A stretch of DNA of 63,871 bases from positions 1-63,871 of the forward strand of contig CAIJMU010000167.1 in assembly GCA_903821875.1 (NCBI GenBank), read 5' to 3'. Of this stretch, positions 3,173 to 51,352 are shown one piece after another. Source of the stretch: an uncultured Spirochaetota bacterium. Its GTDB lineage: Bacteria; Spirochaetota; Spirochaetia; Treponematales; Rectinemataceae. Under the pieces are notes generated by a model. That model was not told where the DNA came from. It ran no database searches and worked only from the letters and a program-made list of their open reading frames with translations. Every line of letters begins with the position of its first letter. Positions within the stretch are counted from its first letter, which is position 1. Made by a program: the position numbers and the translations under genes.

Positions 3173-4450
3173 CTAGTTCGCATTGCGCACCAGACGCACA
3201 TAGTTGAGTACACGATCCGAATCCCGCGCGATACTGCGCACGGAATTGAGCCCAGGATCGGAGTCGATCGTTGTGCGTGCGCTGTTTATTGTCTTGGAGG
3301 CGAAGCGTACTGCGCCCGCTCCGTGCAGGTCCGCACCGACCGCGTCGACCGCCCTGCCGAAGGCGACATACCAGGCGAACCTGTACCCATCGTCCCTTCC
3401 GGGATCGGGAAACACGGTCGTGCTCGTCCAGTACCAGGGATAATCGGCAAGAGCCGCCTCGTTGGTGATCCCCGTGGAGCTGAACAGCGGATCGATGGCC
3501 GGACCAACCTTCGCGGTATCAGAAGCACCGGGAGAGCGTGCATAGTCGACGATGTTCTGGAGTTCCTTGTTGTTTGGCAGCCGCCAGTCGTCATGACCGA
3601 GATAATTGGCGGCATTTTGGCTCTGGGCAAAGGCCAGTGCCTGTTCCCAATCCATGCCGGATCCGCTGTCAGCCTGAGCCCACATCAAGCCTGTAGCCTG
3701 ATCCGTAATGGTTCCATCATTGTTATTCCTGAAATTATTGACGCCGTACATGTCCCCGCGAACACAGCGGACAAAGTGAGTAGGCCCTACATTGATTGAA
3801 TAGGCCTTGATGTGGCCGTGGTCGAAGTTCACACCGAAGGCAAGTTCCGCCCCGGTCCCCGGTTCCATGGTGCTTTCGAGCAGTCCCGAGTACTTTGTGC
3901 CGCTCCAGAAGATCGAGTTCGGAGAGGCCTTCGGGTGGGCGAAATAACCCAGATCAACAAAGGGGAAACCCGTGCCGCCTATCCAGATCGAGTAGAGTTC
4001 CTTGATGGTCGGCAGACGCCAGTCGGTATAGCCGCCGTACCCGGTAGCGTTCAAGGCGTCGGGAACAGCCTTGGCTTCCGACCAGCTTTTGAACTCCTCA
4101 AAGCCCTGCTGCCAGGTCAGACCCGTGACCTTGTCGTTCACGGTGAGCCCATCGCTGCTTTTAGTGTAGCTGGCTTGGGTGCTGGAAAACTGGGCATCCT
4201 GACCGTAGAAGGCCTGTCCGACTGAGGGGGCTACAATCTCCACCGTAGCGTTGTAGCTCTTTGCTTGCCCCGTAGCAACGATGGAATAGCTGCTCTGCAC
4301 AGGCACCGTGTACGCTATTTCGGATGTGTCGCCTGCTGAGAATAGGGAGCAAGCTCCAGTCATCATGGCTGCCGAGATTGCCAGGGTCGCGGGAAGCATG
4401 GTCAGCATTGGGTCGATGCCTGTGCGGAAGGCGGCGTTCTTTGGGTTCAC
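3173..4450 (-). CDS. Lipoprotein with two DUF1566 (Lcl C-terminal) domains, copy A
   Basis: A GTG start at 4450 is preceded by AAGGAG at 5-6 nt spacing, giving 425 residues. A longer frame continues upstream but runs through the conserved leader. The N-terminus has a hydrophobic signal and a possible lipobox TGAC (Cys 34). Two DUF1566 modules follow, each with T-G-L-x-W and the D-W-R-L-P-x-x-K-E-L core (about residues 108-155 and 253-300); the C-terminus is YVRLVRNAN. DUF1566 is a lectin-like fold found in secreted and surface proteins; its ligand here is unknown. Closest relatives in the window are copies B (6561-7823) and C (18063-19358). The membrane gene downstream is probably in the same transcript. 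Confidence 0.85.
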   Translation of the reverse strand: MNPKNAAFRTGIDPMLTMLPATLAISAAMMTGACSLFSAGDTSEIAYTVPVQSSYSIVATGQAKSYNATVEIVAPSVGQAFYGQDAQFSSTQASYTKSSDGLTVNDKVTGLTWQQGFEEFKSWSEAKAVPDALNATGYGGYTDWRLPTIKELYSIWIGGTGFPFVDLGYFAHPKASPNSIFWSGTKYSGLLESTMEPGTGAELAFGVNFDHGHIKAYSINVGPTHFVRCVRGDMYGVNNFRNNNDGTITDQATGLMWAQADSGSGMDWEQALAFAQSQNAANYLGHDDWRLPNNKELQNIVDYARSPGASDTAKVGPAIDPLFSSTGITNEAALADYPWYWTSTTVFPDPGRDDGYRFAWYVAFGRAVDAVGADLHGAGAVRFASKTINSARTTIDSDPGLNSVRSIARDSDRVLNYVRLVRNAN

Positions 4451-4522
4451 GTTATCTCCTTGATGATGATGGTAGCGAGTAAGGGCCTCGTGTTCGTCCG
4501 TGCCGCTAAGGGCGGACGTATT
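4451..4522 (-). promoter_or_regulatory. Conserved DUF1566 leader with hairpin, copy A
   Basis: The stem cgtccg / cggacg (4495-4518) encloses a loop containing gccgctaagg. In the direction of the gene it reads GTCCGCCCTTAGCGGC, then GGACGAACACGAGGCCCTTA and the AAGGAG site. The same arrangement precedes copies B, C and D and the locus at 21.4 kb. Confidence 0.6.
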
Positions 4523-4661: not shown

Positions 4662-5009
4662 TCACAATGACCAGCCGGAGAACACCTCAAGCATCGCCTT
4701 TCTGATCGAAGAAAGGTCCCGATCGGTACACCGCCCCCTCTTTCCGACTATCAAGGATTCTTCGAGAGTGAACACTTTCCAGCGCAGAATCGTGGGCTTC
4801 TTCAGGCCAGCGCTGGCCCAATCCTCGAGCAGCACATCGTTTGGCCAATGGCTTCGCTCGGCGCTTGTGAGCATCACAAGAAGACAGGACCCCGTCTGCT
4901 GTTGAAACTCGGCGGAAGACAGAGCCAAGGCCGAACGTAGCTTTGTCGTTCTGGCATCGATGAAGGGAAACGGTACATCCACCACGTCTCCGGCTTCAAA
5001 GGTCGTCAT
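4662..5009 (-). CDS. MazF/PemK-family endoribonuclease toxin
   Basis: 115 residues from ATG 5009 (a TTG at 5012 is also possible). The N-terminal G-D-V-V-D-V-P-F-P-F resembles the PemK/MazF start, where toxins usually have GDIVLVDFPF; the internal SCLLVMLTSAERSHWPNDV fits the family core. MazF-type toxins cleave mRNA in the cytoplasm. It overlaps the antitoxin gene upstream by 14 bp, so the two are translationally coupled. The C-terminus (IRKAMLEVFSGW) resembles the family's last helix. No defect is visible. Confidence 0.85.
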   Translation of the reverse strand: MTTFEAGDVVDVPFPFIDARTTKLRSALALSSAEFQQQTGSCLLVMLTSAERSHWPNDVLLEDWASAGLKKPTILRWKVFTLEESLIVGKRGRCTDRDLSSIRKAMLEVFSGWSL

Positions 5010-5214
5010 CAAGCGAATCCTCCCATTCGCTCAACGTGGCGACAAGGCCAGCAGTCCAGACAGCATCAATTTTTTTCCGCTTCCGCAGGGTTATCTCACC
5101 GTCTTTTTCCTCGAACAGAACCAGGTCACCCTGCTCGAGCCCCAGCCTTTGTCGAACACTCTGCGGAAGGGTTATCTGCCCTTTGCTGGACACGGTAGCG
5201 ATTACTGGCGACAT
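4996..5214 (-). CDS. AbrB/MazE-family antitoxin
   Basis: 72 residues with the swapped-hairpin signature V-S-S-K-G-Q-I-T-L-P at residues 8-17, R-L-G-L-E-Q-G-D, and an acidic C-terminal tail (WEDSLDDDL) that would bind the toxin. The ribosome-binding site AAGGAGGTAAGGAA is very strong, as expected for an antitoxin made in excess. It is first in the operon, and its 3' end overlaps the toxin gene. An inverted repeat over the ribosome-binding site suggests autorepression. Confidence 0.88.
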   Translation of the reverse strand: MSPVIATVSSKGQITLPQSVRQRLGLEQGDLVLFEEKDGEITLRKRKKIDAVWTAGLVATLSEWEDSLDDDL

Positions 5215-5224
5215 TTCCTTACCT

Positions 5225-5237
5225 CCTTACCGTAAGG
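5225..5237 (-). promoter_or_regulatory. Candidate operator of the MazEF module
   Basis: Perfect inverted repeat ccttac-c-gtaagg, 11 bp upstream of the antitoxin ATG. It overlaps the AAGGAGG ribosome-binding site, so a bound MazE dimer or an RNA hairpin could limit expression. Confidence 0.5.
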
Positions 5238-5706
5238 ATATCTCTGCATAGCAACCGAAGCAAGAGCTTGCCAGCGCTCATGTATGGCATGCAGCATCGC
5301 CACCCCCTGCATGTGGTACGCGCGAGGCATTCTTTTCCGATTGCGTCCAAAAGGAAAATCGACAAATTTGCAGGTTGTACCGAGCGGTGGGGGTGGGATC
5401 AGTCAATGTTCAGTGGGGGCGGACCCAAAGGGTTTGCCACCTTCAATGGCGGGGTCAGACCCGAGGGGCTGTCCTCAAGCACTATCGTGTGCCAATGCGG
5501 GTGCCTGCGCGAGAGTACTCGCGCGCGAGAGTACTCGCGGTCGCATATTCTCCAAAGGTCTGATGACTGGAAATCACTCCGGTGATCAAGTGCCGGCCGG
5601 CCGCCTCTGTGTAGTATTCGGCGATCAAAAGAGGAAAGGGGTCGCAACCTTCGGCACCATCCTGAGTCTACCTAGTGCGCGAGCGTCGGCATCCGGAGGA
5701 TTTTCC
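5238..5706. other. Gap before the SGNH hydrolase gene
   Basis: A longer frame of the hydrolase gene extends to 5284, but the segment has no family resemblance. It carries a 16-bp direct repeat (5507-5538) and phrases such as ggggtcagacccgag that look like intergenic debris. I see no gene. Confidence 0.45.
5507..5538. repeat. Two exact 16-bp direct repeats
   Basis: The unit gcgcgagagtactcgc occurs twice without spacing. Each unit contains the self-complementary core gagtactc, so the array can fold or bind dimeric proteins. Confidence 0.8.
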
Positions 5707-6429
5707 ATGGAACAATTAATAATTGGCAGGATATGGAGCTGTCTGGTCTGTGGGGACTCGATCTCAAGGGGCGTGGTCTTCGACGAGGGGAAGGGGAAGT
5801 ACTCCATCCTCAAGGACAACTACGTATCCCTCGTCCAGCATGGCATCCGCAATGTCGTGCGCAACGTGGCGAGGTTCGGGAACACCCTGCCGCGCGGGAG
5901 CTGCAAGCTGGCTCGCCAGATTGCCGAGGAGCGCCCCGGCATCGTCCTCCTCGAGTTTGGCGGCAACGACTGCGACTTCGACTGGAACGAGGTCGCGGCG
6001 CACCCCGAGATCGCCCACGAGCCCAACACGGATCTCGCCCTCTTCGAACGCACCCTGACCGCTACCATCGGGGACCTCAAGGCCAGGGACATCATACCGG
6101 TCCTCATGACCCTTCCCCCGCTCGACGCCGACAAGTTCATAAAATGGGTGAGCCGGAACGACGCGGACGCAGAGAACAGCATCCTGAAATGGCTGGGGAG
6201 CATCTCCCGGATCTACTGGTGGCAGGAGCGCTACAGCTCAGCGATCGCGAGGATCGCCGCGAAGACGAAGACGCGCTCGATCGACATCCGCGGGGCCTTC
6301 CTCGGGCGCGCCGACTTCCAGGATCTCCTCTGTCGGGACGGCATCCATCCCAATGCCGAAGGTCATCGGCTGATCGCGGATGCCGTTCTCGAGTACATCG
6401 CCGGTGACTACTCCTATATGCTGGCCTAG
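5707..6429 (+). CDS. SGNH/GDSL-type esterase or acylhydrolase
   Basis: 240 residues from ATG 5707, which follows CGGAGGA with 6-nt spacing. The frame stays open to 5284, but that part lacks similarity. The four SGNH blocks are visible: the nucleophile block CGDSISRG (Ser near residue 18), a central Gly in RFGNTLPRG, GGNDCDFDW with the Asn of the oxyanion hole, and DGIHPNAEGH with the catalytic Asp and His near the C-terminus. No signal peptide, so probably cytoplasmic. Members hydrolyse short acyl esters of sugars, lipids or peptides; the substrate cannot be read from the sequence. It converges on DUF1566 copy B. Confidence 0.85.
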   Translation: MEQLIIGRIWSCLVCGDSISRGVVFDEGKGKYSILKDNYVSLVQHGIRNVVRNVARFGNTLPRGSCKLARQIAEERPGIVLLEFGGNDCDFDWNEVAAHPEIAHEPNTDLALFERTLTATIGDLKARDIIPVLMTLPPLDADKFIKWVSRNDADAENSILKWLGSISRIYWWQERYSSAIARIAAKTKTRSIDIRGAFLGRADFQDLLCRDGIHPNAEGHRLIADAVLEYIAGDYSYMLA

Positions 6430-6560: not shown

Positions 6561-7823
6561 CTAGTCCACGTCCCTCACCAATCGCACATAGTTGAGCACA
6601 CGCTCGGAATCGATCGTGGCCCGCTCGGTGTTGATCGACTTGGTGTCGAAGCGCACTGCGCCGGCTCCGTGCAGGTCGCCCCCGTTCGCGTCGACAGCCC
6701 TGCCGAAGGCGACATACCAGGCGTAGAGATAGGTACCGTCGGCCTTCGGCACGGTCGAGGTGCTCGTCCAGTACCAGGGATAGTCAGCTTCTCCGGCCTC
6801 GTTCGTGATGCCGGTGCAGCTGAACAAGGGGTCGATGGCCGGCCCGACCTTGGCGGAATCCGTCGCGCCGGGAGAGCGCGAGTAATTCACAATGCTTTGC
6901 AGTTCCTTTGCGTTGGGAAGCCGCCAGTCATTGTGTCCCAGGTAGTTCTCTGCGTTCTTGCTTTGAGCAAAGGCGAGTGCAGCTTCCCAGTCCATGCCGA
7001 CCAGGCTGTCCGTCGTGCTCCACATCAGGCGGGTCGCCAGGTCGGTGATGATGCCGTCGCCCTTGTCTTCGAAGAGGTTGACGCCATAGGCCAGGTTGCC
7101 ACGGACACAACGGACCAAATGCGTCGGGCCGAAGTCGATCGTGTACGCCTTGATGTGGCCGGTGCCGAAGTTGACGCCGAAGGCCATCTCCCTGCCGATG
7201 GACAATGAAGACAATACATCAGTCGAGCTTGCAAATAGGCCTGTATACTTGGTACTACTCCAGAATATCGCGTGGCTGAGTTCGTCCTGGCTGCTGTAGC
7301 TGATATCAAAATACTTGGTATCGATTGAGGGCCAGCCCGTGCCTTCGTTCCATAACGAGTACAGTTCCTTGATGGTCGGCAGCCGCCAGTCGCTGTAGCC
7401 GCCGTAGTTCTCCTTGTTCAGGCTGTCGATCACCGTCTGTGCTTCCCCCCAGTACATACTGCCGCTCGCCTGGCTTTTCTGCCAAGTCAGCCCGGTGACA
7501 TTGTCTTGTATGGTTAGCCCATCCGTGCTTGCTGTATAGGAAGGGATGACTCGGGGGAACTGGGCGTCCTGCCCGTAGTAAGCATCGCCGGAGGTCGGGG
7601 CGGAAAGGCTCTTGCCATCCTTGTCCCAAAAGCCTGTCTGGCTGGTGCCGACTATCGGGTAGGAGCCTGCGTAGGCTGGGTCGCGGGGGACCAGCGAAAG
7701 CGTCGGTCCAAACGGAAAGGTGCATCCGCTGATCATGATGGCGACACCTATCGCAACGATGACTCGAAGCATGTTCCGCCTCAGATCGATGCTGTCGAGG
7801 AAGGCAGCGTTCATCGGGTTCAT
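6561..7823 (-). CDS. Lipoprotein with two DUF1566 domains, copy B
   Basis: 420 residues from ATG 7823 (MNPMNAAF), preceded by GAGGAG at 6-nt spacing. A signal peptide ends in the lipobox ISGC. The architecture is as in copy A: a linker with AYAGSYPIVGTSQTGFW, the first module with G-G-Y-S-D-W-R-L-P-T-I-K-E-L, the second with L-G-H-N-D-W-R-L-P-N-A-K-E-L-Q, and the C-terminus VLNYVRLVRDVD. Long stretches match copy A, so the pair looks like a duplication. Probably anchored in the envelope and exposed; the ligand is unknown. A receiver-domain remnant follows the stop codon. Confidence 0.85.
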   Translation of the reverse strand: MNPMNAAFLDSIDLRRNMLRVIVAIGVAIMISGCTFPFGPTLSLVPRDPAYAGSYPIVGTSQTGFWDKDGKSLSAPTSGDAYYGQDAQFPRVIPSYTASTDGLTIQDNVTGLTWQKSQASGSMYWGEAQTVIDSLNKENYGGYSDWRLPTIKELYSLWNEGTGWPSIDTKYFDISYSSQDELSHAIFWSSTKYTGLFASSTDVLSSLSIGREMAFGVNFGTGHIKAYTIDFGPTHLVRCVRGNLAYGVNLFEDKGDGIITDLATRLMWSTTDSLVGMDWEAALAFAQSKNAENYLGHNDWRLPNAKELQSIVNYSRSPGATDSAKVGPAIDPLFSCTGITNEAGEADYPWYWTSTSTVPKADGTYLYAWYVAFGRAVDANGGDLHGAGAVRFDTKSINTERATIDSERVLNYVRLVRDVD

Positions 7824-7927
7824 GTAATCTCCTCGAAAGAGCCTGGGTATAGCGGCGCTTTCGGGGATGACAATACCGAGGAAGGCCATTGTGTTCGTCC
7901 GCGCCGCTAAGGGCGGACGTTTTTTCT
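7824..7927 (-). promoter_or_regulatory. Conserved DUF1566 leader with hairpin, copy B
   Basis: Perfect stem cgtccgc / gcggacg (7896-7902 with 7913-7919), loop gccgctaagg. On the plus strand the stem is followed by tttttt, so it could also act as a terminator in that direction. Toward the gene the text GGACGAACACAATGGCCTTC resembles copies A and C, then comes a 35-nt insertion before GAGGAG. Confidence 0.6.
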
Positions 7928-9069: not shown

Positions 9070-9205
9070 TCAATCCGAGTTCCTCATAATTCGTACGTTA
9101 ACGCCCGGCATGTAGGGCGTGCTGAAGAGGAGCCAGGCACGCGCCGAAACAGCAGCGGGCAGGACAAGGGCAAGACCCAAGCGTCCTTGGGTCTGCCCGA
9201 TGGGT
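9070..9205 (-). pseudogene. Chimeric remnant: start of a GT-C-like gene joined to a DUF1566 tail
   Basis: The minus strand reads RAWLLFSTPYMPGVN, matching residues about 12-28 of the membrane protein at 1579-3147, then continues in frame into VRIMRNSD and a stop. The latter is the end of another DUF1566 gene (compare VRIMRNAE at 22.3 kb). The rest of the membrane gene was deleted between the two pieces. Confidence 0.8.
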
Positions 9206-9445
9206 CTAATTCGCATTGCGCACCAGACGCACATAGTAGAGCGTACTTCCGTCCCCTTCCCCTTCCCCTTCAACTTCGACTGCAAGCCCGCTCACCTTGA
9301 CGTCAAAACGCACAGCCCCGGCTCCATGCAGGTCTTTACCGTAGCCATCACCTGCCCTTCCGAACGCGACATGCCATGCGAAGATATAGGGCCCATTCGC
9401 CTGGGCTATCGCCGAAGTGCCTGTCCAATACCAAGGATCTGAGCA
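9206..9445 (-). pseudogene. 3' fragment of a DUF1566 lipoprotein gene
   Basis: It encodes DPWYWTGTSAIAQANGPYIF, then FAWHVAFGRA and DLHGAGAVRFD, and ends YVRLVRNAN with TAG at 9206-9208, matching the last 80 residues of copy A. A run of Glu-Gly codons (EVEGEGEGDGS) replaces the usual segment before the end. The 5' part is lost at the junction with IS91-type sequence. Confidence 0.85.
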
Positions 9446-9533
9446 CGCCAGCCGGGCTGAAGTGGAGGCCTTTGCGCTTGCATTTTGCTTCAGCAATGCA
9501 ATCGCGAGCTGGGGGTCCGGGCGTATCCTCTGT

Positions 9534-10014
9534 ATGGTCTCATCCCTCGCTGCTGCGCCAGATCCGGCATTCGCCCCTGCCACGCCCGTCTACCAGCCTC
9601 GTGGCAGGAGCGACCTCCAGCGCCTTTTTCATGAACGCTTCCCCGCCTTCGAAAAAGCCTATGAGGAAAAGTACGCGGCCGGCTTCGGGAAATTTCGCCT
9701 ACCGCTGATTAGTGCCGCCTCCTCGGTCTTCGATGCTTGCGGTGATTGGGAGAACGGCATAGCCCGCATTCGTTGCTCAGACTGCGGCTATGACTACTTT
9801 CGCCCTTTCTCCTGCAAGTCCTTTTTCCTCTGCCCCTCCTGCGGTCAGAAACGGACCCTCCTCCTCGGGGAGTACCTGGCCGAGGATCTGCTCTTGCGCC
9901 TCCCACACCGGCAGTTTGTGTGGACGATACCGAAGGCCTTGAGGGGATTCCTCAGGCAGGACCGCTCGCTGTTCGCCGCAGTCGGGAAGCTGATCTTCGC
10001 CCTTATCGCCGAAC
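9534..10014 (+). mobile_element. Truncated IS91-family transposase (N-terminal zinc-binding domain)
   Basis: A frame with ATG 9534 encodes about 160 transposase-like residues: a Zn-binding module R-C-S-D-C-G-Y, S-C-K-S-F-F-L-C-P-S-C-G-Q-K (CxxC, C, CxxC) and then FVWTIPKALRGFLRQDRSLF, typical of the IS91 N-terminus. The HUH nuclease domain is absent: similarity stops near 10014, where an oppositely oriented peptidase fragment begins. It is not autonomous. Confidence 0.8.
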
Positions 10015-17456: not shown

Positions 17457-17549
17457 ATGAGCGACTACCTCGACCCGAACAATGAAGAGTTGCTCAAGGA
17501 CTTCTTCTCCGAGGCCTTTGCCCAGGTGGAGACCCTTGAGAAGAACATC
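17457..17549 (+). pseudogene. 5' fragment of a cheA-like gene
   Basis: ATG 17457 opens 31 codons reading MSDYLDPNNEELLKDFFSEA then QVETLEKNI, the beginning of the CheA Hpt domain as I know it from spirochaete CheA proteins. The phosphorylated His, dimerisation and kinase domains are absent; the frame runs into antisense DUF1566 sequence. AGGAGA lies upstream, so the 5' leader was probably carried along. Confidence 0.6.
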
Positions 17550-17552
17550 TCC

Positions 17553-18066
17553 ATCTCCTTGCCGATGGAGCTTTCGTCCAGAGTGCTTTCAAAGAGTCCG
17601 GCATAGGGAGTCGAACTCCAGAAGATCGCATGGCTGAGCTCTTGCTCGCTGGCGTACACTATCTCGAAATAGTCCGTGTCGATGGAAGTCCAGCCAGTGC
17701 TTTCGTTCCACAGGGAATACAGCTCTTTGATGGTCGGCAAGCGCCAGTCGCTGTAGCCGCCGTAGTTTTCGGCGTTCAAGGCGTCAGCCCGTCGGCGCTC
17801 GTGGTGTAGGACGGCGCGGTCCGCGAAAACTGGGCGTCCTGTCCGTAGAAGGCCGCACCGACTGCCGGGGCGGCGATGCTCGTGCCATTATTGCTTCAAA
17901 ACCCCGTCTGACTAGTACTGACTATCGGATAGCTGCCGGCGTAGGCCGGGTCGCGGGCGACCGGCGTGAGCGTTGGACTGAACAGGGAGGTGCATCCTCC
18001 GATCGTGATTGCGGCGAGGAGGGCCAGGGTCGTGGCGACCGCAGGGATAAATCGATGCTTGCTCAT
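17553..18066 (-). pseudogene. Broken DUF1566 lipoprotein gene following copy C
   Basis: ATG at 18066 overlaps the stop of copy C in ATGA, an operon-like arrangement. It encodes a lipoprotein signal (ITIGGC) and AYAGSYPIV, closely like copy B. Lesions: TGA at 17896-17898 where copy B has Trp; a frameshift and a loss of about 30 codons before N-A-E-N-Y-G-G-Y-S-D-W-R-L-P; truncation at SSIGKEM, where the cheA fragment begins. Confidence 0.85.
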
Positions 18067-19358
18067 TCAACGTTCCTCACAATACGTACAAAGTTGTCGA
18101 TCCGGATGGCGTCGCCCTGGGGCCCGCGGCCATCGGGGAAATCGGCCGCGCTGCCTGCCTTGGGATCGCTGCGCTGGGCTCCGGCGCCATGGACATCGCC
18201 CCATGAGCCTCCTTTCTTGCCCATGGCCCTCCCGAAGGCGACGTAGCCAGCCTTCTCCCCGCCTTCCCGCCCAAGGTGCGAGGTCGATGACCAATAGCAA
18301 GGCCAATCAGGATTACCAGCCTCGTTGGTGATCGCTGTACACGAAAACAGCGGATCGATGGCCGCCGAACCCGTGGTCGCGGGCGATCGCGAGTAGTCCA
18401 CGAGGCTCTGCAGTTCCTTGACGTTGGGCAGGCGCCAGTCATTATGACCGAGGTAGTTCTCGGCATTTTTTTCCTGGACCCAGGCCAGCGCTTTCGTCCA
18501 GTCCATGCCCAGGCCTGAGTCGGCCCGCGTCCACATGAGTTTTGTTGCCCCGTCGGTGATGGTGCCGTCGCCATTGTCCTGGAAGTCGTTGACGCCGTAG
18601 GCCAGATTTCCCCGGACATAGAGGACGGAGAAACGATGATGGACAGGATAGCCCTTGATCCGGCCGTCGGCGAAATTCACGCCGAACATGGTCTCGGTTT
18701 CGCCGATCACCGACCCCATCTCAATGGTAGTTTTGGCGGTGTACAGGGTGGACGAGGCATAAACGGAGCCAATTATTCGCTCCCCGGCACTGACATCGCC
18801 ATAGCTGAATCCGAAAACGGCGCTGTCGATAAAGGGCGTGAGGCCCGTCGCGCTTGTGTCTTCCGGTCGAGGTTCCTGTCCGTCAAAACGGATCAGGGAG
18901 TACAGCTCCTTGATGGTCGGAAGGCGCCAGTCGCCATATCCGCCGACCTTTACCGTGCCAGCGCTGCGCAAAGCCTCGGCGAAGGTACGGTAGTCGGCTG
19001 TGTTGGTGGTTCCATCCCCATTCAGGTCGGTCGTCTGGGTCCACATCAGGCCCGTCACGTTGTCGCTTACCGTCCCATCGCCATTGTCGAGGTAGCTCGG
19101 CGCTGTGCCGGGCTGCTGGGCATCCTGCCCGTAGAGGGCGTCGCCTGCGGCGGGAGCGGTTATTTCTCGGCCGTCAGAGCCCCAATACGAGGTCTGTCCG
19201 GTGCCCACGATCGGGTAGGATCCGGGGCTTGGGGCTTCTCGTTCAGCAATGTAGCCATCCAAGGAAGTCGCGCAGGCGACGAGCGAAAGGGTAGCGGCCA
19301 AGGCTGCTGCTGCCATCAGGCGGCAGAGGCCTTGCAGTGTGGTGGTTCTCAGGTTCAT
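18063..19358 (-). CDS. Lipoprotein with two DUF1566 domains and an EF-hand-like loop, copy C
   Basis: 431 residues from ATG 19358 (MNLRTTTL), with GAGGAG upstream. Signal peptide with lipobox LVAC. After the linker (PGSYPIVGTGQTSYWGSD) comes a calcium-loop-like D-L-N-G-D-G-T-T-N-T-A-D, which recalls dockerin or EF-hand loops and is absent from copies A and B. Then come the two modules with G-D-W-R-L-P-T-I-K-E-L and N-D-W-R-L-P-N-V-K-E-L-Q. The end is NFVRIVRNVE. It forms a second subfamily with the broken copy D. The downstream broken gene overlaps its stop by 4 bp. Confidence 0.85.
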   Translation of the reverse strand: MNLRTTTLQGLCRLMAAAALAATLSLVACATSLDGYIAEREAPSPGSYPIVGTGQTSYWGSDGREITAPAAGDALYGQDAQQPGTAPSYLDNGDGTVSDNVTGLMWTQTTDLNGDGTTNTADYRTFAEALRSAGTVKVGGYGDWRLPTIKELYSLIRFDGQEPRPEDTSATGLTPFIDSAVFGFSYGDVSAGERIIGSVYASSTLYTAKTTIEMGSVIGETETMFGVNFADGRIKGYPVHHRFSVLYVRGNLAYGVNDFQDNGDGTITDGATKLMWTRADSGLGMDWTKALAWVQEKNAENYLGHNDWRLPNVKELQSLVDYSRSPATTGSAAIDPLFSCTAITNEAGNPDWPCYWSSTSHLGREGGEKAGYVAFGRAMGKKGGSWGDVHGAGAQRSDPKAGSAADFPDGRGPQGDAIRIDNFVRIVRNVE

Positions 19359-19432
19359 GTCGTCTCCTCGGAGGTGACAGTAGCGAGGAAGGGCCTCGTG
19401 TTCGTCCGCGCCGCTAAGGGCGGACGCCTTTT
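19359..19432 (-). promoter_or_regulatory. Conserved DUF1566 leader with hairpin, copy C
   Basis: Perfect stem cgtccgc / gcggacg (19403-19426). Toward the gene it continues GAACACGAGGCCCTTCCTCG, then CTACTGTCACCTCCGAGGAG and the ATG. Confidence 0.6.
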
Positions 19433-19515
19433 CTTTCAATCTGCAGGTACTGTGGGAGGCTGGATGAGGTGGGAGCCGTTACATGACAGCGAAGCGCATA
19501 GCCGCCAGGGTTCCC

Positions 19516-19543
19516 TTGACGCAAGGGCGCATCGCAATACACT
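19516..19543 (+). promoter_or_regulatory. Promoter of the first BrnTA module
   Basis: TTGACG (19516-19521), 16-bp spacer, TACACT (19538-19543). The same promoter text lies before the second brnT copy at 30351-30378. Transcription should begin about at the toxin start codon. Confidence 0.6.
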
Positions 19544-19549
19544 GTATTT

Positions 19550-19837
19550 ATTATCACATTCCAATGGGATCAACCCAAGGCTAATGCCAACCTCAGGAAA
19601 CATGGAATCTCCTTCGAGGAGGCCCAGTCGGTTTTCTACGATGAATTCGCCATTCAGTTCTACGACGATGGACATTCGTCTGTCGAAGAACGATTCCTGA
19701 TGCTTGGCATGAGCTCAAGCGCACGGGTGCTTGTCGTCTGCCACTGCGCACGCGAGGCTGGTGATGTAATCCGTATCTTTTCAGCACGAAGAGCCACAAA
19801 ACGTGAATCCACATTCTATGGAGGTGAATTGCCATGA
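19550..19837 (+). CDS. brnT: BrnT-type toxin 1, without a standard start codon
   Basis: The frame encodes F-Q-W-D-Q-P-K-A-N-A-N-L-R-K-H-G-I-S-F-E-E-A, H-S-S-V-E-E-R-F and VIRIFSARRATKRE, all BrnT landmarks; the family is a RelE-like ribosome-dependent RNase. About 95 residues if the ATT at 19550 is used. The second copy has ATG at the corresponding position (30385), so this start appears mutated from ATG to ATT, and no other ATG, GTG or TTG lies in frame upstream. It could be silent or weakly translated. The stop overlaps the antitoxin ATG in ATGA. Confidence 0.7.
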   Translation: MITFQWDQPKANANLRKHGISFEEAQSVFYDEFAIQFYDDGHSSVEERFLMLGMSSSARVLVVCHCAREAGDVIRIFSARRATKRESTFYGGELP

Positions 19838-20058
19838 GAGCTGAATACGATTTTTCAACAATGAAGGCCCGCAAGAATCCTTACACTTTGAAATTAAAGA
19901 AGCCAGTTACCATGCGCCTCTCTGAGGAAGTTGTCCTTTATTTCAAGAACATGGCCCTTGAGGCAGGAGTTCCCTATCAGAGCCTCATCGACCTTTACCT
20001 ACGGGACTGCGTCGCTCATCACCGTAAAGTCAAAATCGCATGGCCGGCCAAGCCCTGA
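19834..20058 (+). CDS. brnA: BrnA-type antitoxin 1
   Basis: 74 residues. The pattern is that of BrnA/CopG-like antitoxins: a basic lead, KLKKPVTMRLSEEVVLYFK (ribbon strand and helix), M-A-L-E-A-G-V-P-Y-Q-S-L-I-D-L-Y-L-R-D, and a basic tail. GGAGGT lies 5-6 bp before the ATG, and the gene overlaps the toxin by 4 bp. BrnA binds its own promoter and neutralises BrnT. It looks intact and may now serve as an orphan if the toxin start is dead. Confidence 0.85.
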   Translation: MRAEYDFSTMKARKNPYTLKLKKPVTMRLSEEVVLYFKNMALEAGVPYQSLIDLYLRDCVAHHRKVKIAWPAKP

Positions 20059-20145
20059 AGCTTTTCGGCAGCAGGTTGGTGCGCCTCGCTAAAATCGACA
20101 ATCAACCCCGAGCAAGCTTGAGCGATCCTTGAGACCCCCCCGCGC

Positions 20146-21207
20146 TTAGAAGCTGAAGCCATTCACCAGGACCTGGAGTTGCGGATCGATATCCGCCTCC
20201 GATCCCGGCAGTGGGCCACAGACGGCCACCCAGGACAGCCGTGGGCTTGCTCGCCATGAGCCCTCCGAGAGGGATGCCATGTCTGAGCAGGCGAGCGAGA
20301 CCGTCGAACCGCCGATCTTGGAGAAGGTTCCAACGCTTCTCCGCGTCATCCTTGCTGTAGGAGAAGCCGATCGTCTCTTGTGTCAGCAGGCTGCCGTCGT
20401 TGGCCGCGACCACGAGGCCGCCATTCCCGTCATCGGCAAGCCGTTTCTGGTCGTTGCCCCAGAATAGGAGCGACTCGGTGTAGCAGTTGAGGTCGAAAAG
20501 TTTGAAGGCCGTCGTGGCGAAGAGCCGCGGGGATGCGTCCCCGGAGGGCTGGTAGAAGCCACCAATTGAGATTTCTGTGCCGGCGAGGAGCCAGCTACCC
20601 TGAGCGGAGAATTTCACATCGGAGCCTGAGGTGGCGCCATTGGTGGAGATGACCGCCTGATACGTGCCGGCCGCTCCTGTCTCGAGGGAAGCCTTGAGGG
20701 AGACCGGGCCTTCGCGGACGGCGCCGAGGTCGGCGGGATCGATGGAAGACAGGCTGAGCACGTCGGCCGGGCTGTAGTAGAGGCCCTTGCCCCAGGAGAT
20801 GAACTGCTTGCCCACCCTGAAGTAGGCCAGGTCGCCTCCCTGGAAATCGCGCTGACGTGGAAATCCCCCGTAGCCGACACGGGGTTTAAGGTCCAGGTTC
20901 CCTTGGCCCCGATCCGGAGGTCCTGGTCGGGCCGGGCGGTCAGGCCGAGATCGAGGGAGAGGGACTGGGACAGGGCGGGGTCGCTGTCGGACCACAGGGC
21001 CCTCGCCTGGGCATGGAACTCGCCGAAGAGCAGGGTTTTCAGGTCGGTGCCCATGAGCTTTCCGGTCACATCGGCCGTGGACGAAGCGGATTCCGTGGCG
21101 ACCCCGGCGTCCGGGGAATCGAAGAGGGCATCGTCCGCCGACTGGCCAAAGACAGGAGCGGCGCATAATGCAAGCTAGGCCGAAAGCCTGAGGGCGCGGT
21201 TTTTCAT
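20146..21207 (-). pseudogene. Dead outer-membrane beta-barrel protein gene
   Basis: ATG 21207 after GGAGGGG encodes MKNRALRLSA, then TAG (21175-21177), then LALCAAPVFGQS, a signal peptide interrupted by one stop at codon 11. Further on, the frame shifts near 20860 and again near 20320. Pieces read GTDLKTLLFGEFHAQARAL, VGKQFISWGKGLYYSPADVL and TLSQETIGF-type beta strands, with the C-terminal phenylalanine (LVNGFSF) typical of barrels. The W-G-x-G-L-Y-Y-S-P-A-D-V-L motif resembles DUF1302-like or capsule/alginate-export porins. Three lesions make it a pseudogene. Confidence 0.75.
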
Positions 21208-21217
21208 GCTACCCCTC

Positions 21218-21307
21218 CTAAATTAGTGGCTTTTTCGAGGAAGGATTTGGGGAAACCAAAACCAGAAGTGTGAGGAAGCCCAGCGTCCCTATGCGTTGTG
21301 GATTCAT
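21218..21307 (-). CDS. Small ORF behind a DUF1566-type leader, 29 residues
   Basis: ATG 21307 encodes MNPQRIGTLGFLTLLVLVSP and stops after PSSKKPLI. The M-N-P start and hydrophobic run match the signal peptides of copies A and B, and the conserved leader lies upstream. It looks like the stub of a lost DUF1566 gene, though a leader peptide for the barrel gene 10 bp downstream is possible. Confidence 0.35.
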   Translation of the reverse strand: MNPQRIGTLGFLTLLVLVSPNPSSKKPLI

Positions 21308-21428
21308 GTCGTACCCCGAGCTGTGTGGCGTCGCAGCCACGACAGTGGCTTTAGGCGACGCTTTCGGGAGTGACGATACTGAAGAAACCGGGACGCTTCG
21401 TCCGCGCCGCTAAGGGCGGACGCTTTTC
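21308..21428 (-). promoter_or_regulatory. Conserved leader with hairpin, copy E
   Basis: Perfect stem cgtccgc / gcggacg (21399-21422). It continues GTCACTCCCGAAAGCG toward the gene, as in copy B, and holds a further complementary pair around gtggcgtcgcagccac (21327-21342). It precedes the small ORF and the dead barrel gene instead of a DUF1566 gene. Confidence 0.55.
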
Positions 21429-22259: not shown

Positions 22260-22289
22260 CTCCGCAAGGGACATCGCACCCGTCTATCC

Positions 22290-22545
22290 TCATTCCGCAT
22301 TCCTCATAATTCGTACAAAGTTGTCGATCCTGATGGCGTCGCCCTGGGGGCCCCTGCCATCGGGGTTGTCGGCTGCGCTTCCCGCCTTGGGATCGCTCCG
22401 CGGGCAGCCCGCTCCGTGCACGTCCATCCAGATACCGACCATCTTGCCCGTGGCGCGGCCGAAGCTGATGTATACGGCCTCGTTTCCCGCATCGGGACCG
22501 AAGCCAACATGCGTCGTCGATGACCTATGGCATCCGTAGTCAACA
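22290..22545 (-). pseudogene. 3' fragment of a DUF1566 gene
   Basis: It encodes SSTTHVGFGPDAGNEAVYIS, FGRATGKMVGIWMDVHGAGC and GPQGDAIRIDNFVRIMRNAE with TGA at 22290-22292. This is the C-subfamily tail (compare copy C). The 5' part is absent; an NHL-like fragment on the other strand abuts it. Confidence 0.85.
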
Positions 22546-30285: not shown

Positions 30286-30350
30286 TTTCTCGGCTTCATT
30301 CAGCGCCTCGGTGCAGGCGGGGCCGGCTGGCTTCATCCGCCAGGGCTCCC

Positions 30351-30378
30351 TTGACGCAAAGGCACATCATAATACACT
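30351..30378 (+). promoter_or_regulatory. Promoter of the second BrnTA module
   Basis: TTGACG (30351-30356), 16-bp spacer, TACACT (30373-30378), conserved with 19516-19543. The toxin ATG at 30385 is 6 bp beyond the -10 box. Confidence 0.6.
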
Positions 30379-30384
30379 GTATGT

Positions 30385-30545
30385 ATGATCACATTCCAAT
30401 AGGATCAACCCAAGGCAAAAGCCAATCTCAAGAAACACGGGATCTCCTTCGAGGATGCCCAGCCGGTTTTCTACGACGAATTCGCCATTCAGCAAGAAGA
30501 GCTACAAGACGCGAATCCACGTTCTATGGAGGTGAATTGCCATGA
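30385..30545 (+). pseudogene. Broken BrnT-type toxin 2
   Basis: ATG 30385 opens M-I-T-F-Q then TAG (30400-30402) where copy 1 has Trp. It continues KHGISFEDAQPVFYDEFAIQ, then loses about 40 codons, and resumes in RESTFYGGELP with TGA overlapping the antitoxin start. It is certainly inactive. Confidence 0.9.
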
Positions 30546-30766
30546 GAGCTGAATACGATTATTCAACAATGATGGCCCGCAAGAATCCATGCGCTTCGAA
30601 ATTGAAGAAACCAGTTACCATGCGCCTCTCTCAGGATGCTGTCCTCTATTTCAAGAACATGGCCATTGAGGCAGGCCTTCCCTGTCAGCGCCTCATCGAC
30701 CCTTGCCTGCGAGACTGTGTTGCTCATCACCGGAAAGTCAAAATTGCATGGCCGCCCCAGAGCTGA
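30542..30766 (+). CDS. brnA: BrnA-type antitoxin 2, orphaned
   Basis: 74 residues, about 80 percent identical by eye to antitoxin 1 (KLKKPVTMRLSQDAVLYFK, then MAIEAGLPCQRLID). The frame is intact with GGAGGT upstream although the toxin next to it is broken. It could still neutralise toxin 1 or repress both promoters, since the promoter texts are the same. Substitutions such as L-Y to P-C in the last helix hint at relaxed selection. Confidence 0.8.
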   Translation: MRAEYDYSTMMARKNPCASKLKKPVTMRLSQDAVLYFKNMAIEAGLPCQRLIDPCLRDCVAHHRKVKIAWPPQS

Positions 30767-37551: not shown

Positions 37552-37610
37552 CCCATGTTTCTCCGAAATCCGCTGGCCGCTTCCCAAGGACCAGCGCTGC
37601 GTGTTGGTCC

Positions 37611-38725
37611 CTACTCCGCGTCCCGCACGAGGAGCACGAAATTGTCGATCCTGATTGCGTCACCCTGGGGTCCCTTGCCATCGGGGTAGTCGCCGGTATT
37701 TCCCACCTTGGGATCGGTCCGCTGGCCGATGAATTGGTCGTCGCGGGCGAGCGGCTGTAGTCGACGATGCTCTGCAGCTCCTTGATGTCCGGGAGGCGCC
37801 AGTCGGAGTGACCAAGGTAATTGCCGGCATTTTTCGCCTGGACCCAGGCCAGGGCCTCTTCCCAGTCCATGCCCTCGCCTGAGTCGGCCTTGGACCACTT
37901 GAGCCCTGTCGCATTGTCGGTTATCGTGCCGTCGCCATTGTCCTTGAAATCATTGACGCCATAGGCGAGGTTTCCCCGGACATAGTAGACGTAGAAGTCG
38001 CTCTCTCCGAGGCCTTGCATGCTGACGCAAAGTGGATAGCCCTTGATGCGACCGTCGGCGAAGTTCACTCCGAACATGGTCTCGAAAACGAGGAAGGTCT
38101 TGTCCACGTACAGGGTCGAGGTGGTGCACCGGGCGTCGATGATGCGGTCGCCCGAGCCGATATCGCCGTAGCCAAAATCGAAGTAGCCGGTATCGATGAA
38201 GCGGATGCTCCCGCGGGCGTCGGGGGCGCCGGTACGCACATCGGTGCCGCTGAAGTCGATGAGCAAGTAGAGCTCCTTGATGGTCGGTAACCTCCAGTCA
38301 CTGTAGCCCTCGACGGTGATAGCCGAGGAGCCCTTTGCTGCCTTGACCAAGCTGCGCTTGTCGGCGGCGTTTATCGTGCCGTCCCCATTCAGGTCGAGGC
38401 TTTTTGTCCACATCTGTCCGGTCACGAGGTCGCTGACCGTCCCGTCGCCATTGTCACGGTAGCTTGGCGTCGTGCCGGGACGCTGGGCATCTTGGCCGTA
38501 GAGTACCTCATCCTTGGCAGGAGCAGTCATTTCCCTGCCGTCCGTGCCCCAGAAGCTCTGCTGTCCCGTGCCCACAATCGGGTAGGAGCCTGGGCTGGAG
38601 GCTTCCCGCCCAACCAGGTAGACATCAATCGAGGTTGTGCAGCCGGCGAGCAACAGCGTAACGACTAATGGCGCGGCCTCCAGCAGTCGGTGCAGGCGCC
38701 GCCATGCAGTGGTTCTCAGGTTCAT
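37611..38725 (-). pseudogene. DUF1566 lipoprotein gene with a broken 3' part, copy D
   Basis: ATG 38725 with GAGGAG opens a good lipoprotein (lipobox LAGC) of the copy C subfamily, with the calcium-loop-like D-L-N-G-D-G-T-I-N-A-A-D and both D-W-R-L-P motifs. After SPATTNS about 70 codons are missing and the frame shifts. The original frame resumes as GPQGDAIRIDNFVLLVRDAE with stop at 37611. The shifted frame runs on to 37430 and would give an altered 431-residue protein. Secretion of a truncated form is possible. Confidence 0.8.
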
Positions 38726-38800
38726 GTCGTCTCCTCAAGGATGACAGTACCGAGGAAGCACGTCTTGTTCGTCCACGCCGCTAAGGGCGCACTTTTTTCT
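38726..38800 (-). promoter_or_regulatory. Conserved DUF1566 leader with hairpin, copy D
   Basis: The hairpin (38770-38793) has mismatches compared with copies B, C and E (cgtccac / gcgcac). The following text CTTCCTCGGTACTGTCATCC and GAGGAGACGAC agrees with copies B and C. The weaker stem parallels the decay of its gene. Confidence 0.5.
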
Positions 38801-47018: not shown

Positions 47019-47067
47019 GCGGAGAGGCGATTCGCTGACAGCCTTTGACAGGGCTTCCGCCCAATCC

Positions 47068-47109
47068 CTAGCCCTTGATGCGGCCGTCGGCGAAGTTCAC
47101 TCCGGACAT
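47068..47109 (-). pseudogene. Very short DUF1566 gene scrap
   Basis: The minus strand reads SGVNFADGRIKG, identical to a stretch of copies C and D (F-G-V-N-F-A-D-G-R-I-K-G), then a stop. About 40 bp survive. Confidence 0.75.
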
Positions 47110-47395
47110 CTTCGTCTCCCAGATGGTGGTTCTCGACGATGTCGTGGAGGTCCAGAATCTCGCGATTGGACAGGCGACGTACCATCGCGCCTCGTCGCGG
47201 GAAGATCTCGACCAGGACCTCCGTAGAGAGCCTCGTGATAGCGTTCACGATCGGAGTTCGGGAAACCTTGAGCCTGGTGGATAGCTCTTCCTGTCTGAGT
47301 TTCTCTCCCGGCTGGATTTCCCCTTAGAGAATCAGGTTCCTGAGCCGGATGTAGACCTCTTCCGAGAAATCCTCGAACTCGATTTCGTCCGCCAT
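47110..47395 (-). pseudogene. GntR/FCD-type regulator gene, HTH part with an internal stop
   Basis: ATG 47395 encodes ADEIEFEDFSEEVYIRLRNL, then TAA, then GEIQPGEKLRQEELSTRLKV, SRTPIVNAITRLSTEVLVEI and PRRGAMVRRLSNREILDLHD. That is a complete GntR winged helix with one premature stop; the FCD ligand domain is lost at the DUF1566 scrap. Confidence 0.82.
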
Positions 47396-50554: not shown

Positions 50555-50689
50555 GGGTCGAATGTATATCCATCATACCGTTAAGTCAACATAAAACGTA
50601 AAAATATGATAAATGTCGACTAAATATTCTTCAGTCTGATTTCGGGTCTAGGAATGCTGAGTCTGGCACTGAGGCATGGCAACATCGTA

Positions 50690-51120
50690 TCCCTTCTGCG
50701 CATCGCTGACCAACCGTACGAAATTGTCGATGCGTATAGCGTCACCCTGGGGTCGCTCCGCTGGCAGCCGGCTCCGTGCACGTCCATCCAGATACCGCCC
50801 ATCTTGCCCATGGCACGGCCGAAGCTGATATATGCGGCCTCGCTTCCCGCATCGGGGCCGAAGCCGAGCTGCGTCGTCGATGACCAGTAGCATCCATAGT
50901 CTGTCAGTCACGCCTTCGTTCGCGATCGAGGTCGAAGCGAAGGCCGGATCAATGGCCGCCGAATTGGTCGTCGCCGGCGAACGGCCGTAGTCGACGATGC
51001 TCTGCAACTCCTTGATGTCCGGCAGGCTCAAGTCGGAATGACCGAGATAATTGTTTGTATTCTTCGCCTGGACCCAGGCCAGCGCCCCTTCCCGGTCAAT
51101 GCCCTCGCCTGAGTCGGTCT
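50690..51120 (-). pseudogene. 3' fragment of a DUF1566 gene with frameshifts
   Basis: It reads ALAWVQAKNTNNYLGHSDLS, LPDIKELQSIVDYGRSPATT, then shifted frames, then PQGDAIRIDNFVRLVSDAQ without the usual stop. W-R-L-P is changed to L-S-L-P. Copy C/D subfamily. Confidence 0.85.
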
Positions 51121-51352
51121 GAGACCTCATGAGCCTTGGAATCCGTCCAAAGTGCTCAAGATCACGGGTGAGTGCGGGCAGACCTTCCTGCTTGGCGCAG
51201 GGTCCAATGAGAAGCTCCATGAGCGCTATCATCGCCCCTGCCGATCGCAGCGACTGAAGCTTTAGGCGAGCCGGACCCTATAGGCTGCGCGAGTTCTCCC
51301 GAAGCCAATCAGCGCAATAAAAGTGCGACCGCGACGGGCCCTGCGGGATCGC

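Follow-up and report, generated by a model that had tools for sequence, protein, structure and literature searches.

A conserved palindromic block upstream of diverged DUF1566 lipoprotein paralogues in an uncultured spirochaete, most likely a DNA control site

What kind of signal is shared by the leaders of several strongly diverged lipoprotein genes in an uncultured bacterium of the family Rectinemataceae, and does it act as RNA or as DNA? The window, i.e., the whole stretch of 63,871 nt analysed here (contig CAIJMU010000167.1), carries on its minus strand the DUF1566/Lcl_C lipoprotein genes A (3173–4450, GTG start; PF07603, E 2.3e-46), B (6561–7823; PF07603, E 1.3e-49), and C (18063–19358; PF07603 domain match), together with the DUF1566/Lcl_C gene D (37608–38725; domain match), whose reading frame is broken close to the 3' end. 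Each of the four contains two Lcl_C (DUF1566) stretches. A fifth minus-strand start belongs to a stub, S, a 29-codon remnant (MNPQRIGTLGFLTLLVLVSPNPSSKKPLI) with its ATG at 21305–21307, and 3' of it lies a disrupted gene, probably for an outer-membrane protein (20102–21208; outer-membrane-like, weak DUF1302 match), whose signal peptide contains a stop and which also has frame breaks. Another broken DUF1566 copy (about 17546–18067), interrupted by in-frame stops and a frame break, lies directly 3' of C and its start overlaps the end of that gene. Further DUF1566 fragments without the leader are found at 9100–9583, 22287–22541, 47066–47116, and 50648–51232, some of them joined to shared flanking sequence, and amount to a graveyard of duplicated pieces.

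An earlier note had described the same hairpin-containing block before copies A to D and before the stub at 21.3 kb, and this holds. A 24-nt palindrome, CGTCCGCGCCGCTAAGGGCGGACG on the plus strand, occurs at five places, each upstream of a minus-strand start, whereas its chance expectation is zero (no match in 100 shuffles). The palindromes of B (7896–7919; CGTCCGCCCTTAGCGGCGCGGACG in gene orientation, 89.9 bits with the covariance model), C (19403–19426), and S (21399–21422) are exact, that of A (4495–4518) has one mismatch, which turns a C–G pair into C–A in the gene-strand RNA, and that of D (38770–38793) has three mismatches, with three broken pairs or changes, and retains the core CGCCCTTAGCGGC..GGACGAA. 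The near end of the palindrome is 44 nt from the start codon in A, C, and D, 72 nt in B, and 91 nt in S, so that the 70–105 nt given previously is roughly true of the far end. The details of the block described in that note fared unevenly: GAACAC(G/A)A is confined to A, B, and C, with GAACAAGA in D and GAAGCGTC in S; CTTCCTCG is found unaltered only in B, C, and D; and the GAGGAG site reads AAGGAG in A and is absent from S. The proposal that the hairpin decays together with its gene fails, since it rests on the single case of D, broken and with a decayed palindrome, and is contradicted by S, which is more broken and keeps a perfect one.

The suggestion that conservation of this non-coding block implies function is supported by comparison with the genes behind it. 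At 4-fold degenerate sites, the A, B, C, and D genes are 35–51% identical, where 29–37% is expected at saturation, whereas the 24-mer is 96–100% identical among A, B, C, and S (83–88% against D); a block kept to this degree while synonymous sites approach saturation is probably functional. Columns invariant in all five copies comprise AAA, CGCCCTTAGCGGC, GGACGAA, TT..TC, and TA...TCA, although such counts are not independent, given the common ancestry of the copies, and the core CGCCCTTAGCGGC plus GGACGAA is unchanged throughout, loop included. The 20-nt linker between the palindrome and TA varies in sequence (down to about 30% identity for S against A) but has the same length in every copy, with no insertion or deletion, whereas the stretch between TCA and the start codon differs by 28 nt or more between copies. 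A and C are identical at 19 of 20 linker positions, which suggests an exchange of leaders between copies or a wider constraint. On the upstream side, A, B, and S are recognisably homologous only to about 7 nt before the palindrome, beyond which every pair other than C/D is no more, or hardly more, similar than shuffled sequences (A/C is borderline, with 7 of 200 shuffles scoring as high).

This fixed spacing points to a promoter. A hexamer of the form TAYYRT begins exactly 20 nt after the palindrome (+44 from its start) in all five copies, all on the minus strand: TACCAT in A (4469–4474), TATTGT in B (7870–7875), TACTGT in C (19377–19382), TATCGT in S (21373–21378), and TACTGT in D (38744–38749). 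When scored with a sigma-70 weight matrix written from general knowledge, +44 is the only offset with a common -10 signal (summed score 20.9; the next best of 210 offsets reaches -2.3), and a conserved -10-like signal thus stands at a fixed distance, as in a promoter with an activator or operator palindrome. Moreover, the pattern GGACGAA-N17..19-TANNNTCA is found at five places in the genome, all of them at these copies. GGACGAA itself is invariant, yet it has poor likeness to TTGACA, the -35 candidates being CGAACA or ACGAAC, and since this region is poor, the whole-promoter scores at the fixed offset are weak (1.3–4.4, below the background median of 5.5). This would imply either a weak, activator-dependent sigma-70 promoter or a different sigma factor.

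Our preferred reading, which we hold to be slightly more probable than not, is that the block represents a co-duplicated promoter of the DUF1566 lipoprotein paralogues with a protein-binding palindrome at about -56 to -33. The 24-bp palindrome would function as double-stranded DNA, as the target of a putative sequence-specific regulator, with its 3' arm merging into GGACGAA, which would occupy the -35 region. The TAYYRT hexamer 20 nt further on would be the -10 element, placing the palindrome centre at about -44.5, and transcription would begin some 12–13 nt past the first base of TAYYRT, giving a short 5' UTR that includes the ribosome-binding site and excludes the hairpin. A start downstream of the hairpin is the outcome that the earlier note had itself named as refuting its proposal. 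Class II activators and promoter-overlapping repressors bind at about such positions. We infer the promoter activity, the start site, and the regulator with its sign, whereas the copies, their positions, spacing, and conservation, and their absence elsewhere are direct observations. In B, an alternative promoter, TTGTCA-N16-TATACC, has a higher score (10.2) at a position even further downstream, which would again leave the hairpin outside the transcript.

The main rival places the hairpin (7 bp, a bulge, 2 bp, and a UUAGC loop) at the 5' end of the mRNA, where it would control stability or translation. A stable hairpin is indeed predicted in A, B, C, and S, and the sequence shows that the ribosome-binding site (CGAGG or UGAGG) can pair with a CCUCG present in B, C, and D. 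In a structured RNA, however, pairing is expected to outlive sequence, and the five copies show the reverse: compensatory stem changes, which had been named as the support to look for, are lacking (none of nine pairs is changed on both sides), three cells of the pair comparison are broken, with pairs lost in D and A, and the loop is as fixed as the arms. Transcription of the hairpin would also call for a common promoter on its upstream side, which is unlikely given that upstream similarity falls to the shuffled level except in C/D; instead, the one -10-like signal common to all copies is downstream of it. The leaders of A (z -0.71) and D (z +1.08) do not fold clearly better than their shuffles, and an Rfam search of the window gave no match. 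For these reasons, among the RNA element, attenuator, or protein site offered previously, the protein site fits best, the first two are unsupported, and we regard an RNA element in the 5' UTR as unlikely.

More doubtful is an intrinsic terminator on the plus strand that would shield a divergent plus-strand neighbour from antisense transcription. All five palindromes lie between a minus-strand DUF1566 copy and plus-strand genes, and in B a GC-rich stem is followed by TTTTTT; A, B, C, and S have three to five T among the first five bases past the stem, the run consisting of four T in A, C, and S, each offset by 1–2 nt. A stem with a direct U-tract is present on the plus strand in B, where alone it is convincing, weaker in A, C, and S, and absent on the gene strand. 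However, the best T-run besides that of B is the long one of D, whose stem is broken, which together with the fixed loop speaks against termination as the principal role, and terminator-like sites in the region number 19 against 15.9 in shuffles. A terminator requires pairing and not a fixed sequence, so that the earlier idea of a stem plus T-run terminator, possible on the plus strand only, leaves the invariant loop and the uncompensated stem unexplained.

A bolder proposal, which we consider slightly less probable still, is a lineage-specific RNA or DNA switch acting in concert on a few arrayed DUF1566 surface lipoproteins and on broken copies, where the exchange of leaders would select the paralogue to be expressed. 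Finally, a recombination or mobile-element end (attC-like or of the IS200/605 type), with the palindrome as left border of a copied unit, is highly improbable: homology of A, B, and S does begin at the palindrome, the five copies share one orientation, and broken duplicates are common in the region, which also contains a gene resembling a PIN-domain toxin, but the attC R boxes RYYYAAC and GTTRRRY are lacking within 120 nt on both strands, no match in the genome exceeds the TIGR02249 cut-off for an integron integrase, no copy stands apart from DUF1566-type starts, and no common right end was seen.

How far does the block extend beyond this region? A 65-nt covariance model finds exactly five matches in the 4.68-Mb genome (E 1e-16 to 1e-20; the next at E 6), and neither the model nor pattern searches reveal a sixth palindrome there. 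The four further DUF1566 genes that the genome carries (contigs C23, C92, C1, and C138) lack the block, and searches of the genome with the palindrome and the GGACGAA pattern yielded no regulon member outside the paralogues. The remaining CGTCCGC/GCGGACG palindromes of the genome were rejected, one being inside a long open frame and one having a different spacer, with no related start. The covariance search across spirochaete relatives, which had been proposed as a check, returned only chance-level matches in the 293 other genomes of the order (294 with its own), the best reaching E 0.004 per genome. An exact pattern with 18 fixed bases matched 12 times in wider genome contigs, none with the full stem and mostly inside open frames, in a number close to chance expectation; viral contigs gave 31 matches to the 15-base core, none with the full stem, and plasmids gave no palindrome match. 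The nearest homologous gene (44% identity over the aligned part), in genome G054 of the same order, has a hairpin of similar shape, which was set aside as coincidence since it appears in a short fold only, is lost in a longer one, and is unrelated in sequence. That lipoprotein homologue is divergent from a gene that by eye is an AraC-type regulator (the two genes are at 4959–6161 and 6311–7642 of L085), and an inverted repeat, CGGTCGGCT/AGCCGACCG, lies between the two, an arrangement that offers a lead on the regulation of this lipoprotein family.

Other features of the surroundings are recorded here in their own right. A two-gene module is duplicated at 19502–20058 and 30337–30766 (88–89% identity) and, judged by eye, resembles a BrnT/BrnA toxin–antitoxin pair. 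A tandem palindromic run (GCGCGAGAGTACTCGCGCGCGAGAGTACTCGCG) is present at 5507–5544 inside the frame of a GDSL hydrolase gene. The literature on diversity-generating retroelements mentions DUF1566 (e.g., PMC4159848). Reverse transcriptase matches in this genome (G000) number four, on contigs C6, C153, C69, and C50, and none is on the present contig.

Taken together, the block is a real, strongly conserved, promoter-proximal feature of a local paralogue family and most likely acts as a DNA control site. It belongs to an ordinary kind of element, and its reach is narrow, since among the genomes searched the site is confined to one contig of one species. Its importance is that strongly diverged surface-lipoprotein paralogues appear still wired to one common control signal, and that the 24-bp site, available in five natural versions including a decayed one, provides a clean test object. 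Among known systems, intrinsic (Rho-independent) terminators share the GC-rich hairpin and T-run, on the plus strand, but the hairpin here is upstream of genes in antisense orientation, with a fixed loop and no compensation. Class II activator sites and promoter-overlapping operators, such as those of CRP class II and the LuxR/TraR-type boxes, are closer: their palindromes are centred about 41–45 bp before the start and abut or overlap the -35 element, with a weak promoter behind, although the position relative to the start is here deduced from sequence and, to our knowledge, the palindrome resembles no such site that can be named. A parallel also exists with the duplicated promoters of paralogous families of surface lipoproteins, in which a near-identical upstream block likewise precedes diverged paralogues within one region, but here only a short block is retained, limited to one contig.
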